From a virus, in IMG/VR virus record IMGVR_UViG_3300028592_000026, positions 1-46,002 of that record: a DNA stretch of 46,002 nucleotides; one strand, 5' to 3'. This document shows, piece after piece, positions 7,224-11,846 of this stretch; position 1 is the stretch's first letter, and every line of letters begins with the position of its first letter. Made by a program: the position numbers and the translations under genes. The notes below the pieces were generated by a model, which was given only the letters and a program-made list of their open reading frames with translations, was not told the DNA's origin and made no database searches.

Positions 7224-7332
7224 TAGCCCCATCAGTGGATCTAGTACCCACTTCAGGCGCACGCCCTGTAATCACCAGCGCGACCAGCACGGCATAGGCG
7301 ACTGCGAGAACGATGATCGTGGCGGGGATCAT
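7126..7332 (-). CDS. Small membrane protein downstream of Cro-like gene
   Basis: 68 residues from ATG 7332, overlapping the Cro-like gene's stop as ATGA. The first 22 residues (MIPATIIVLAVAYAVLVALV) are a clear membrane span. The remainder overlaps the convergent gene at 6942-7223 and has less convincing composition, so the true gene may be shorter or frameshifted. Confidence 0.5.
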   Translation of the reverse strand: MIPATIIVLAVAYAVLVALVITGRAPEVGTRSTDGATSHLAAAEWRHALERLQEGSPRTSPVRGERRG

Positions 7333-7526
7333 GCTGCGGCATCCGTCGGGACCGGCGGCAAGTGACGTTCGAGGGCGATCAGCGTCGCGGCGCTGGGGTT
7401 CCACCCCGTGTCCTCGATGCCCTGCAAAGTGTTCGGGTGAAGCCCGGCCTTCTCGGCGAGACCTTTCTTGGTAACGCCCGGGCTCTTGAGATGGTCGCGG
7501 ATGCGCTCGATGGTGCTGATAACCAT
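7329..7526 (-). CDS. Cro-like XRE repressor
   Basis: 65 residues. A single helix-turn-helix domain: TKKGLAEKAGLHPNTLQGIEDTGWNPSAATLIALERHL. Its size and divergent position relative to the CI-like gene are those of a Cro protein, the first product of the left early operon, expected to bind the same operators as CI and shift development to lysis. Its promoter (7534-7562) overlaps an operator. Confidence 0.85.
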   Translation of the reverse strand: MVISTIERIRDHLKSPGVTKKGLAEKAGLHPNTLQGIEDTGWNPSAATLIALERHLPPVPTDAAA

Positions 7527-7533
7527 GACCGGC

Positions 7534-7562
7534 TAGAAACCACATCTGAATGTGTTTTTCAA
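7534..7562 (-). promoter_or_regulatory. Early-left promoter with operator in its spacer
   Basis: Read leftward: -35 TTGAAA (7557-7562), 17-bp spacer, -10 TTTCTA (7534-7539). The dyad CACATCTGAATGTG at 7541-7554 fills the spacer, so repressor binding would block RNA polymerase. It drives the Cro-like gene and the operon down to 1777. Confidence 0.65.
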
Positions 7563-7571
7563 GCGACAAAT

Positions 7572-7585
7572 CACATCAGCATGGG
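7572..7585. promoter_or_regulatory. Second left operator
   Basis: CACATCAGCATGGG is an imperfect copy of the operator dyad, 31 bp from the one at 7541. Read toward the promoter it matches the upstream operator of the right block (11107-11120) at 12 of 14 positions. It overlaps ATG 7581, an alternative CI start, and could mediate CI autoregulation or cooperative binding. Confidence 0.55.
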
Positions 7586-7610
7586 GTTTGTACCTGCTAG
7601 GCGCGCTCGT

Positions 7611-8276
7611 ATGGCCCGCACCCCGGAAGATCGCCGCGAGATACTTCGCAAGTTCATGTCCGAAAAAGGGCTCAAGCCGGGGCCATGGGCTAAGCAATCA
7701 GGCGTCGCGGCCAACTCGCTCTACAACTTCCTCAACGGCCATTCTGACGCCTTGGACCACACCACCTATGCCAAGCTTGCCCGAACGCAGCAGGTTCCGG
7801 TTTGGCGCTTGAGCGGGGACAAGCCAGAACCACCCGGCCCGTCCTCGCTATGGGTCGCCGGCCATGTAGAAGCGGGAGTTTTTCGCGAAGCTGTTCAATG
7901 GGATCAATCGCTGTGGTATTCGGTTGATGTGCCTGTGCCCGATCGATTCCGGCGCGTCGCGAAAGCCCTAGAAGTCCGCGGCCCGTCGATGAACCTTGAA
8001 TACCCGGATGGGTCCGTCGTGGTGTGGGTTGACGTGCTTGATGCCCGCCCAATGCAAGACGGCGATCATGTCATCGTCTATGCTCACCGGCACGACGACA
8101 GCATCGAAGCAACCGTCAAGGAGCTTCGCGTCATGAACGGCCGGAGGTGGCTGTTGCCGAAGTCAACGGATCCAGCTCACCAGGCCCCTATCGATCTCGA
8201 CGAGCCCGGCGAGGGAATTCGCGAAGTGGAGGTGAAGGGGATCGTGCTAGGCGGATACCGTCCTAGGCTGGTCTAG
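7611..8276 (+). CDS. CI/LexA-like phage repressor (S24 protease)
   Basis: 221 residues from ATG 7611; ATG 7581 would add ten. The N-terminal DNA-binding domain includes GPWAKQSGVAANSLYNFLNG. The C-terminal S24 domain has the self-cleavage dyad: Ser126 in VRGPSMN and Lys170 in EATVKEL, with Ala-Gly sites (VAGHVEAG, 82-89) as likely scissile bonds. It should hold lysogeny by binding both operator blocks and be inactivated by RecA-stimulated autocleavage. Neither start has a strong ribosome-binding site, as is common for CI genes. It converges on the lipoprotein relic 2 bp downstream. Confidence 0.88.
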   Translation: MARTPEDRREILRKFMSEKGLKPGPWAKQSGVAANSLYNFLNGHSDALDHTTYAKLARTQQVPVWRLSGDKPEPPGPSSLWVAGHVEAGVFREAVQWDQSLWYSVDVPVPDRFRRVAKALEVRGPSMNLEYPDGSVVVWVDVLDARPMQDGDHVIVYAHRHDDSIEATVKELRVMNGRRWLLPKSTDPAHQAPIDLDEPGEGIREVEVKGIVLGGYRPRLV

Positions 8277-8278
8277 CG

Positions 8279-8377
8279 CTAGCGGTAGACACCGTTACGA
8301 GCCATCAACCAGTTTATGTCCTGCTCCTGCGCTTTGTCGCGGCGGTTTCCAATATCAACGTTATCGTTAAACGTTTT
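8279..8377 (-). pseudogene. Detached 3' end of the immunity-region lipoprotein gene
   Basis: Read on the minus strand this encodes KTFNDNVDIGNRRDKAQEQD...NWLMARNGVYR then TAG (8279-8281). The first part is identical to codons near the end of the lipoprotein gene at 10734-11069. Joining that gene to this segment restores an uninterrupted reading frame of about 115 codons. It is the original gene end, separated by the mobile element. Confidence 0.85.
8308..8377. repeat. 70-bp direct repeat, left copy
   Basis: Starts ACCAGTTTATG and ends TTAAACGTTTT. It is identical base for base to 10751-10820. It abuts the left terminal inverted repeat of the mobile element exactly, which is the layout of a target-site duplication. 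Confidence 0.95.
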
Positions 8378-8399
8378 GGCGTTTATCCCCTTGACCCAC
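8378..8399 (+). repeat. Left terminal inverted repeat
   Basis: Begins GGCGTTTATCCCCTTG and ends ACCCAC. It matches the reverse complement of 10729-10750 over all 22 bases and diverges immediately inside. Confidence 0.92.
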
Positions 8400-8544
8400 C
8401 CTCCGTTGTTTTCGACCGAGCGTGCCGGAATACCGGCTCAGAAAGGGAACGGTCCTCCGGGGAAGCCTGAAGTCCACCTCTGAAGTCTGTGGACAACGCG
8501 GAGTCCCGCTTGCGTCGAAACTCGACAACGGCTATGCGGGCGAA

Positions 8545-9033
8545 ATGGCGACAACACTCCGCGACTTCATCGCCCAGCGCGAGACCGAGATCAGGGACCA
8601 GCAGAAGGCTCTGAAAGCGGAACTGCGCGAGCTTCAGATTGCCAAGGCCGCGCTTGATGGGCAGGTCGATGCCCCTGCCAACGGCGCAACGCCGACAATC
8701 AAAGAGATGGCTCGCGAAGTGCTGTCCGGAATGCCGAACGGCCTCAATTCAAGCGGCATCCTCGACGGGATCAAGAAGACGTTCGGGCGTGAGATCGAGC
8801 GGACCAGTCTCTCGCCTCAGCTAAGTCGCCTTAAGGACGACGGAGATCTCGTTCTGAACGGTGAGCTATGGTTCACCGCAGCGCACTGGAAGGCGTGGTC
8901 GGAATCTTGGGGGACCGATGCCCCACTCCAGCCGAACACCAAGCCCATTGAGGCTCGAATGGACGAGAACCCATTCGCCGAGCAGCGCTTTTCCGAGCAC
9001 AACCCGTTTGAGGAGGATGATACCCCCTTCTAA
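8545..9033 (+). CDS. Passenger: coiled-coil/winged-helix protein
   Basis: 162 residues from ATG 8545; the frame is open upstream to 8422. An N-terminal coiled coil (LRDFIAQRETEIRDQQKALK) is followed by a winged-helix domain (TIKEMAREVLSGMPNGLNSS, ERTSLSPQLSRLKDDGDLVL) and a DNPF/EE-rich acidic tail (EHNPFEEDDTPF). The tail resembles a protein-interaction motif. Likely a DNA-binding protein; its role in the element is unknown. Architecturally related to the truncated gene at 1387. Confidence 0.75.
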   Translation: MATTLRDFIAQRETEIRDQQKALKAELRELQIAKAALDGQVDAPANGATPTIKEMAREVLSGMPNGLNSSGILDGIKKTFGREIERTSLSPQLSRLKDDGDLVLNGELWFTAAHWKAWSESWGTDAPLQPNTKPIEARMDENPFAEQRFSEHNPFEEDDTPF

Positions 9034-9040
9034 CGAGAAT

Positions 9041-9060
9041 GGGGCACCCGAAGGTGCCCC
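9041..9060 (+). terminator. Hairpin after the wHTH passenger gene
   Basis: A perfect 8-bp stem, GGGGCACC/GGTGCCCC, with a CGAA tetraloop begins 7 bp after the stop codon. There is no U-run, so termination is probable but not certain. Confidence 0.55.
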
Positions 9061-9174
9061 AGAAGCCCGACCGGACGGCAATCCGGTCTAACCATCAACC
9101 CCGAACCCCCAATGATCAGAAAGGTAGGTGCAAGCGTGACGGCGTTAATAAGTAGCTAGCCGGTTGGACCGGCA

Positions 9175-9204
9175 GGCCCTGTCCAGCGTGAGCCGGACAG
9201 GGCC
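9175..9204 (+). terminator. Strong hairpin in the passenger region
   Basis: Stem GGCCCTGTCC/GGACAGGGCC (10 bp) with a 10-nt loop and no following U-run. It lies in the 190-bp gap before the TTG-start gene. It may be a terminator, attenuator or part of a small RNA; no other coding sequence is visible in the gap. Confidence 0.45.
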
Positions 9205-9250
9205 ATACTCCTACGCATGTATGACGAATCCGTCAACTTAGGAGGCCAAA

Positions 9251-9415
9251 TTGGCTAAATCACCACCACCACGTCAGACCTCTCCGAAGGTCTCTTCGCT
9301 GGCTTCCCGCGTCCTCTCGGGCGCTACGAAGCCGACCGCCGCTCAATCCCGCACCTTGGCCGCTTCGGCCTTGGGGCAGGACCAAACGCGCGGGCAAGCG
9401 CCTAAGCGCAAGTAA
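9251..9415 (+). CDS. Passenger: small basic Ser/Ala-rich protein
   Basis: 54 residues starting at TTG 9251 with a strong AGGAGG about 7 bp upstream. The product is rich in Ser, Ala, Lys and Arg (MAKSPPPRQTSPKVSSLASR..., ending PKRK) with no aromatic residues. I recall similar small basic proteins beside ISXO2-type transposases in sphingomonads. Probably nucleic-acid binding from charge. Function unknown. Confidence 0.65.
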   Translation: MAKSPPPRQTSPKVSSLASRVLSGATKPTAAQSRTLAASALGQDQTRGQAPKRK

Positions 9416-9656
9416 GCCTCGGCTCTCGTAGCCGAGTAACATTGACGACGCAGCGTGTAGGAATCTGGATCACTCCGGAGACCTGCACGCTGTTTTCGTC
9501 GTTGATTGCGCCCATGTTGGGCGCAAGAGCCTTCATCTCGTCGTCGTCGCGGATCAACCAACCCACCGACACGCACAGGATGATGCCTGGTGCTTCAAAA
9601 GATGCTAGATAGGACCACGCCGGAATGGGTTGGGCGCTGTCCTCCCATTCGATCAT
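9402..9656 (-). CDS. Passenger: 84-residue regulator-like protein
   Basis: 84 residues from ATG 9656. Composition is that of a small alpha/beta protein: MIEWEDSAQPIPAWSYL, VGWLIRDDDEMKALAPNMG, VSGVIQIPTRCVV. This family recurs with insertion elements in alphaproteobacteria (recalled, not checked). It is divergent from the next gene with the two ATGs sharing CATG at 9654-9657, so the pair cannot have separate leaders. The 3' end overlaps the TTG-start gene by 14 bp. Confidence 0.65.
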   Translation of the reverse strand: MIEWEDSAQPIPAWSYLASFEAPGIILCVSVGWLIRDDDEMKALAPNMGAINDENSVQVSGVIQIPTRCVVNVTRLREPRLTCA

Positions 9657-9867
9657 GACGAGAGGGCATTCGCCAGTGGAACGCGTGACTCTAGCTGAAG
9701 CCATAGCCGCCGGGGACTTAGAACCCTTCATCCGGCAGGCGGAAGCCGATGGCATCGGCCCCGCTGATCGAGAACGGTTCGAAGCGATAGCGACGCGCGT
9801 CATAGCGCCCCCACCATCAGATCAAACATCGCGTTCACCCGCTCGCGATGGTTCTGGCGGAAAGTGA
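9655..9867 (+). CDS. Passenger: 70-residue acidic/basic protein
   Basis: 70 residues from ATG 9655. The helical part VERVTLAEAIAAGDLEPFIR and GIGPADRERFEAIATRVI is followed by a conserved-looking tail, PSDQTSRSPARDGSGGK. The tail overlaps the transposase 3' end by 68 bp on the opposite strand. It pairs with the divergent gene at 9402-9656; a two-component module (for instance toxin/antitoxin or regulator/target) is possible but unproven. Confidence 0.65.
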   Translation: MTRGHSPVERVTLAEAIAAGDLEPFIRQAEADGIGPADRERFEAIATRVIAPPPSDQTSRSPARDGSGGK

Positions 9868-10702
9868 ACTCACCCAGATAGCGTTCCATGTGCTTGCCGC
9901 TGATCTGGATATGCGTTGACCGCACCGACGCCTTGAACAGCCGCCAGAAGCCTTCCACGTGGTTCGTGGAGTGCGTCACGCCCTGCCGATAGTCGTAGTG
10001 CGTCCATTCTTTCGCGGAGTGCTTCACCGCACCGTGGATGTAGCCGTCGCCGGTGAGTAAGCCGTAGCTCATCAGTTCGTCGGTCGAGACAACCGAACCC
10101 TTTTCAACGTTCTCATTCACGACAGCGCGCAGGGTCGGCTTCTTCACGTCGGGAATAACCTTGGCGACCAGCGGGCCACCCTCCTGCTTCATACCCATAA
10201 CGATGGTCTTGCCGGGAGCGCCACGTCCGCGCTTACCACCCGAGCGGCGGCCCCCTACGTAGGCCTCATCGGCCTGAATATGGCCAGAAAGCAGGCCGTC
10301 GAAATCCGTGGCACCCATCAGCTTCCTGATCTGCATGCCGATACGGTAGGCGGTCTTATACGTCACCCCAAGCTGGCGCTGCAGCTCTTTGCCGCTGACA
10401 CCGTGGCGGGTCGTGGCGAACAGGTACATTGCATAGAACCAGCTAACCAGCGGTGTGCGGGTGTCGTGCAGAATGGTGTTTGCGGTCGGCGCGATCTGGA
10501 ACAGGCAATGCGGGCAGGCATAGACGCGGCGCTCGCGTAGCTTGTGGAACTCGCCCTCGATCCCGCAATCCGGGCAGAACATTTTCAGGCCGCCGAAGCG
10601 AACCGTCATGATGTGCTCAAGGCAGGCTTGATCGTCGGGGAAGCGCGCGAAGAACTGGCGGACGCTAAGTTCGGGCGATGCGGAAGGACTGCGCTTGCTC
10701 AT
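9800..10702 (-). CDS. IS1595-family (ISXO2-like) transposase
   Basis: 300 residues. The N-terminal zinc ribbon has CPDC and CPHC (about 43-66). A helix-turn-helix segment, SGKELQRQLGVTYKTAYRIG, is followed by the ISXO2-like DDE-type catalytic domain with IQADEAYVGGR (first Asp), VSTDELMSYG (second Asp) and STNHVEGFWRLFK (the final acidic/Asn-His motif). Full length with intact motifs, so probably active. It starts 27 bp inside the right inverted repeat. Confidence 0.95.
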   Translation of the reverse strand: MSKRSPSASPELSVRQFFARFPDDQACLEHIMTVRFGGLKMFCPDCGIEGEFHKLRERRVYACPHCLFQIAPTANTILHDTRTPLVSWFYAMYLFATTRHGVSGKELQRQLGVTYKTAYRIGMQIRKLMGATDFDGLLSGHIQADEAYVGGRRSGGKRGRGAPGKTIVMGMKQEGGPLVAKVIPDVKKPTLRAVVNENVEKGSVVSTDELMSYGLLTGDGYIHGAVKHSAKEWTHYDYRQGVTHSTNHVEGFWRLFKASVRSTHIQISGKHMERYLGEFTFRQNHRERVNAMFDLMVGAL

Positions 10703-10728
10703 GCAAGCTTAATGGCAGAACTCCTAAC

Positions 10729-10750
10729 GTGGGTCAAGGGGATAAACGCC
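10729..10750 (-). repeat. Right terminal inverted repeat
   Basis: Reverse complement of 8378-8399 across 22 bases. Its outer end joins the right copy of the 70-bp direct repeat with no extra base. Confidence 0.92.
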
Positions 10751-11069
10751 ACCAGTTTATGTCCTGCTCCTGCGCTTTGTCGCGGCGGTTTCCAATATCA
10801 ACGTTATCGTTAAACGTTTTACGCAGCGCCGTGTGGTTTCCCCGCGCCTCATCCAAAGATGCCGCCACCGCCTTGAGATAGCGGTCGGAGGATTCAAGAT
10901 CGCTTTTCAGGTTGGCGACTTCCGTCTCCAGCTCGGCAACTTTGTCCTTTAGGCGGCCTGCCTCGTTAAGGGCATCTACTGCCCTGTCATCCGCTCGCCG
11001 AGCCGTGTCCACGGGCGTTTCGCACCCCGCGAGCGCCAGCGCCCCTGTCACTATCATTAGTAGCCGCAT
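10734..11069 (-). CDS. Coiled-coil lipoprotein of the immunity region (C-terminus altered)
   Basis: 111 residues. A lipoprotein signal peptide (MRLLMIVTGALALAGC, lipobox LAGC) is followed by a long coiled coil (LNEAGRLKDKVAELETEVAN...). The coding sequence runs into the mobile element's inverted repeat, so the original ending LMARNGVYR is replaced by WRLSP. The coiled-coil lipoprotein form resembles o-spanins, but its place between repressor and right promoter, away from the lysis genes, suggests a lysogen-expressed surface protein such as a superinfection-exclusion factor. That is inference. Confidence 0.8.
   Translation of the reverse strand: MRLLMIVTGALALAGCETPVDTARRADDRAVDALNEAGRLKDKVAELETEVANLKSDLESSDRYLKAVAASLDEARGNHTALRKTFNDNVDIGNRRDKAQEQDINWWRLSP
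10751..10820. repeat. 70-bp direct repeat, right copy
   Basis: Identical to 8308-8377. It lies inside the lipoprotein coding sequence and abuts the right inverted repeat of the mobile element. Confidence 0.95.
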
Positions 11070-11106
11070 AGGCCCCTCCCCGAATCACACCGTAGCGCAC
11101 GAAAAA

Positions 11107-11159
11107 CACATGCTGGTGTGATTTAGTGCTTGCGAACCACATTTGAATGTGATTATACA
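11107..11159 (+). promoter_or_regulatory. Early-right promoter with two operators
   Basis: Rightward -35 TTGCGA (11130-11135), 18-bp spacer, -10 TATACA (11154-11159). Operator CACATTTGAATGTG (11138-11151) sits in the spacer and has perfect 6-bp arms. A second operator, CACATGCTGGTGTG, is at 11107-11120, 31 bp upstream. The block mirrors the left one at 7534-7585 in sequence, order and spacing. It drives the right operon; the lipoprotein gene reads the other way from the same gap. Confidence 0.7.
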
Positions 11160-11207
11160 GTGCCCATCAGCCGCCCACAGTGGGCCGGTATGATGGGAGA
11201 ATGAACC

Positions 11208-11846
11208 GTGACCAAGCAGGTCGAGAAGTTCGAGGTTCGCAACCGCTGGACCAACCGCGTCCAGTTCACCGCCGAAATCACCTGCGCGCCAGATGCCACG
11301 CTCGGCATTAAGCTCGGTCTGGCCGTCCGCTGGGGCTATCGCAACGATGCCGACCTGAGCGGTGCCGACCTGCGCGATGCCGACCTGAGCGGTGCCGTCC
11401 TGAGCGGTGCCGTCCTGAGCGGTGCCGTCCTGCGCGATGCCGACCTGAGCGGTGCCGACCTGCGCGATGCCGACCTGAGCGGTGCCGTCCTGAGCGGTGC
11501 CGTCCTGAGCGGTGCCGACCTGAGCGGTGCCGACCTGCGCGATGCCCCAAAAATCGAAAACATCCACCAGAAGGTTTACGCCGCCGCCTCGCAGCCGGGT
11601 GCGCTCGACATGGGCGATTGGCACATTTGCGAGACCACCCATTGCCGCGCCGGATGGGTAACTCATCTGGCTGGCGAGGAGGGTAAGGCCCTTGAAGAGC
11701 GTATCGGCACGCCTGCCGCGGCTTCGCTGATCTACCTCGCAAGCGATCCCACGCTGGACCGGTTTCCCGACTTCTATTGCAGCAATGCTGATGCCTTGGA
11801 GGACATGAAGCGCCTCGCAGAGCTTGAGGCAGCCAAGTCGGCCTGA
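11208..11846 (+). CDS. Pentapeptide-repeat protein
   Basis: 212 residues from GTG 11208 with GGGAGA about 10 bp upstream. Residues 47-112 are about 13 tandem A(D/V)L(S/R)(G/D) units that should fold into a right-handed beta-helix. A conserved C-terminal domain follows: [33 protein letters not shown]. This two-part architecture recurs as the first gene of phage early operons. DNA-mimic pentapeptide proteins can inhibit gyrase, but no such role is shown for this family. Confidence 0.88.
11346..11543 (+). repeat. 15-bp tandem repeats (pentapeptide units)
   Basis: About 13 near-identical 15-bp units alternating forms such as GCCGACCTGAGCGGT, GCCGTCCTGAGCGGT and GCCGACCTGCGCGAT. The DNA-level identity suggests recent slippage or recombination that can change copy number. 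Confidence 0.85.

Follow-up and report, generated by a model that had tools for sequence, protein, structure and literature searches.

We consider it probable (about 0.66) that two ordinary insertions, each duplicating 8 bp and lying 62 bp apart, were joined in vivo or in silico to give the 70-bp direct repeat around an IS1595-family element in the window, a virus record of 46,002 bases. The repeat and the element are real in this record. The length of target duplications serves both the classification of insertion sequences and the inference of transposase cut spacing. If the above reading is correct, the case shows how an element whose normal duplication is 8 bp can come to have a convincing long one. 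It also offers a simple check, in which the 8-mers abutting an element are compared with each other and with the target preference of the family.

The element and its empty site

The region contains the following features:

8308..8377, unstranded: left copy of the 70-bp direct repeat, ending in the 8 bp AACGTTTT that abut the element (putative target site 2)
8378..10750, minus strand: IS1595-family (ISXO2-like) element, 2,373 bp, oriented by the strand of its transposase
8378..8399, plus strand: 22-bp terminal inverted repeat GGCGTTTATCCCCTTGACCCAC, the same at 22/22 positions in the phage-borne relative L006
8545..9033, plus strand: passenger ORF 1 (162 aa), without a match in Pfam or PHROG
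9402..9803, minus strand: passenger ORF 2, 133 aa, no Pfam match
9800..10702, minus strand: 300-aa DDE transposase, ISXO2-like, with a zinc ribbon at its N-terminus (PF12762 and PF12760)
10729..10750, minus strand: 22-bp terminal inverted repeat, opposite end
10751..10820, unstranded: right copy of the 70-bp direct repeat, beginning with the 8 bp ACCAGTTT that abut the element (putative target site 1)
10734..11069, minus strand: phage lipoprotein-like gene interrupted by the element, now coding for 111 aa and ending inside its terminal repeat; intact (115 aa) in the contig L012

The transposase matches the ISXO2/IS1595-type DDE domain PF12762 (2.5e-36) and, at its N-terminus, the zinc ribbon PF12760 (2.3e-8), both over the curated cut-offs, which bears out the assignment to an ISXO2-type element in the preliminary description. 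The zinc ribbon is a feature of the IS1595 family that is absent in the IS1016 group. A Pfam search of the window element yielded domains of the IS1595 type only and no IS1634-family transposase. In its combination of zinc ribbon, DDE_Tnp_IS1595 domain and terminal inverted repeats the element resembles other members of the family, which carry A/T-rich 8-bp duplications and, in some cases, passenger ORFs; by contrast, the window copy is flanked by 70 bp. It is an ordinary IS1595-family insertion sequence, new to the family and with variable passengers.

The two 70-bp copies are 100% identical and each directly adjoins a perfect 22-bp inverted repeat (22/22), as had been described. The probability of a chance perfect 70-bp match precisely at both ends of the element is negligible. 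Fusion of the flanks with a single 70-bp copy restores a 115-aa lipoprotein-like frame with its stop at 8279–8281, in agreement with the target gene proposed earlier. The interrupted gene retains 106 of 115 codons because the right 70-bp copy supplies most of the lost end, and its C-terminus reads WRLSP, not LMARNGVYR. Its product resembles Rz-like spanins only weakly (PHROG 89, E 0.005). A promoter and terminator scan of the region gave nothing beyond chance.

The empty site was sought with the restored lipoprotein as query. In a near-identical phage contig, L012 (IMGVR_UViG_3300028809_000050), the gene is uninterrupted and contains the 70 bp exactly once, which is the arrangement for which a search of related phages had been proposed. 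L012 and the window are 100% identical across 7321–8377 and differ by one mismatch across 10751–11203. Since L012 has a single copy, the duplication arrived with the insertion and not beforehand. A tandem duplication of 62–70 bp followed by an ordinary 8-bp insertion at its centre would produce long flanking repeats too, but L012 has one copy only, and an ordinary insertion leaves equal 8-mers, whereas AACGTTTT and ACCAGTTT match at 5/8 positions. The L012 sequence, for that lineage, and the unlike 8-mers rule out this order of events, to which we attach hardly any probability.

Duplication length in related elements

Relatives of the transposase were collected from one-genome-per-species contigs, mostly of Sphingomonadales and of other Alphaproteobacteria, and from viral contigs; an alignment of the transposases was also used. 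All relatives with both ends defined and a flanking duplication (69/69) have one of exactly 8 bp, A/T-rich in composition. This number combines 60 cases from the first set with 9 from a further search, the latter including L148, where a seeming duplication of 14 bp reads TCG-AAAATGTT-CGA and consists of 8 bp between the 3-bp ends of the inverted repeats. Duplications longer than 8 bp were found in none of the 69, in a scan that would have admitted perfect ones of as much as 399 bp. The 0/60 with another length place a 95% upper bound of ~5% on their frequency. The possibility that a long duplication is a trait of the clade is thus ruled out by the 69 relatives with 8 bp. An 8-bp duplication is also normal for the IS1595 family in the literature (PMC8101967, PMC12561309), with which the result for the clade agrees, as does the norm of about 8 bp given in the preliminary description; a literature search for long duplications in the family found none.

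The closest elements are IS1595-clade elements of Sphingomonadales (e.g., Sphingomonas L016, L018 and L019, and phage L006), with transposases 70–89% identical to that of the window; the 89% refers to a Sphingomonas relative. The inverted repeats of these elements and of the viral contig L014 are close to NNCGTTTATCCCCTTGACCCAC, those of L006 being identical over 22 bp. Duplications of 8 bp are present in L014, L016, L018 and L019 and absent in L006, and the passenger genes are unlike those of the window. Plasmid relatives reach 61% identity at best and their ends are not clearly paired, and a search of annotated phages with the transposase gave two distant matches only.

Long direct repeats around single copies are known for IS1549/IS1634 of the IS1634 family, where they measure 8–514 bp (PMC2266710), as the preliminary description had stated. 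The likeness to the window element is limited to the repeats: the transposases are unrelated, and in IS1549/IS1634 the long repeats are reported for several copies, compared with a single case here against 69 relatives. No mechanism is known for the IS1549/IS1634 duplications (PMC2266710).

Two target sites and how they may have been joined

The 8-mers abutting the window element differ between the left (AACGTTTT) and right (ACCAGTTT) ends, in a family where the usual repeat is 8 bp and not 70 bp, so no ordinary 8-bp duplication is concealed within the 70 bp. Each of them resembles a target in its own right. When all positions in the surrounding 2 kb are ranked by a target model, AACGTTTT falls at the 99.6th percentile and ACCAGTTT at the 94th. 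Among local position pairs with the same 62-bp spacing only 0.15–0.25% score equally well, and among those spaced 20–200 bp apart 0.03–0.12% do so (model with 69 sites). Site 1 is a mediocre target, and the test, which is statistical, draws mostly on site 2. The target signal of site 1 lies in the half distal to the junction (2.82 vs -1.84 bits), as expected if both ends of an element once used this site.

These properties suggest the following scenario. An IS1595-family element that duplicates 8 bp would have inserted in the 3' end of the phage lipoprotein-like gene, and another insertion of this element, oriented alike, would have taken place 62 bp away, using ACCAGTTT as site 1 and AACGTTTT as site 2. 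The left junction of the window would then be that of the insertion at site 2, and the right junction that of the insertion at site 1, giving 70 = 62 + 8. Joining may have happened in vivo, by recombination between two phage genomes within the shared 2.4-kb element, or in silico, if a mixed population was assembled with short reads that do not cross the element; the two routes yield an identical sequence. The empty site, the 8 bp in 69/69 relatives and the unlike but target-like 8-mers are direct observations and, with the precedent of ISApl4 described below, speak for this scenario; the existence of the two insertions and the manner of their joining are inferred. Against them counts that two insertions 62 bp apart are needed in one phage lineage or sample. 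Exact searches of IMG/VR with the inverted repeat and the 70-mer recovered neither intermediate and no further contig of the window phage with the element; their only hits were L014, L012/L158 and L013, which is the contig L006 under another label.

Mismatched flanks are common among the relatives. In ~14 of them the ends are intact or nearly so and the 8-mers on the two sides are unlike. Scored with a target model built from the 8-bp cases of the relatives, both 8-mers stand at or above the ~89th percentile in 9 of the ~14, and two of the 14 (L046 and L052) possibly represent decayed 8-bp repeats instead. Mismatched flanks with good targets on both sides are, on this analysis, the expected residue of recombination between two copies. 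A precedent comes from a closed genome with ISApl4, in which 8-bp repeats surround all insertions except four, and those four copies sit at rearrangements between copies (PMC12561309). An 8-bp duplication is thus a usual and not an absolute feature of the IS1595 family, because recombined copies lose it. ISApl4, from the IS1016 group of the family, shares with the relatives the A/T-rich 8-bp repeats, which are missing only at rearranged copies (PMC12561309), but differs from the window element in its size (712 bp), its 14-bp ends and in having the transposase as its single gene.

One of the 14 is the phage-borne relative at L006:4954–7034, which has 22-bp ends identical to those in the window and no target duplication. 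It lies within a DNA methylase gene that is short of ~0.5–0.7 kb when compared with homologues. It could be the deletion counterpart of the window duplication, but the reference in this comparison is homologues and not an immediate ancestor.

The main rival reading is the one favoured in the preliminary description, one insertion with a true 70-bp target-site duplication. In our version of it, the two ends were joined 62 bp wider apart than usual, for example by attack on both sister duplexes of a replication fork, or across a wide stagger with subsequent fill-in. Here one event suffices; the exact geometry, the perfect 22-bp ends and the single pre-insertion copy all fit, IS1549/IS1634 demonstrate that long and variable duplications exist (8–514 bp, PMC2266710), and in L006, with no duplication and ~0.5–0.7 kb missing, a similar misjoining could have had the opposite result. 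On the other hand, the 69/69 relatives have 8 bp, the target preference at the right junction resides in the half of the 8-mer distal to the junction, so that the weak half-site does not favour this origin, and the IS1595 family has no known mechanism for it and no precedent in our sample or in the papers found. We therefore regard one insertion event with a stagger of 70 bp as possible but unlikely, and less supported than two joined insertions. If true, it would give the IS1595 family its first long duplication, and those of IS1549/IS1634, which are unexplained, would stand less alone. The family, geometry, target gene, ancestor and 8-bp norm of the earlier account stand, and its single 70-bp target-site duplication is not supported, given the unlike and separately target-like 8-mers and the frequency of relatives with mismatched flanks. 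The better reading of the repeat is what that account listed as an alternative, an unusual two-step or assembly-type event.

Records in IMG/VR are mostly short-read metagenome assemblies and the window itself comes from a virus contig, both of which count in favour of a pure assembly error, in which one junction would have no biological basis, e.g., because overlaps at a bubble were joined wrongly. However, both junctions fall exactly at the ends of the 22-bp repeats and at target-like 8-mers. In addition, a bubble formed by the empty and the occupied site does not create the adjacency of the element to ACCAGTTT, which some molecule should have carried. An error of this kind appears very unlikely.

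Passenger genes and neighbouring sequences

Related elements among L014–L098 range from 1.4 to 3.9 kb and vary in passenger content. An ORF similar to ORF 1 is present in only 3/61 of the related elements (~32% identity). A stretch homologous to ORF 2 is more widespread, found in 19/61 with up to 82% identity, including the element at L014:1709–3087. The latter, on another viral contig, is 1.38 kb long, with ends of like type and an 8-bp duplication, TATTTATT; it contains the ORF 2 homologue, no transposase was recovered from it, and it is apparently a non-autonomous derivative.

A gene for a pentapeptide-repeat protein with an array of 15-bp tandem repeats occupies 11208–11846. Within the 10-kb L012 locus compared, similarity to the window ends at 11203 and restarts at 11836, leaving the pentapeptide stretch unmatched. 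Four CACAT-N4-RTGTG-like palindromes surround the region (7541–7554, 7572–7585, 11107–11120 and 11138–11151), arranged as two pairs with a spacing of exactly 31 bp; the pattern has 11 matches versus 4.0 expected. The first pair lies towards the 5' end of the ORF for the S24-type repressor (7362–8276), near its likely true start, and the second between the lipoprotein and pentapeptide genes. The pairs look like candidate operators of the phage repressor.
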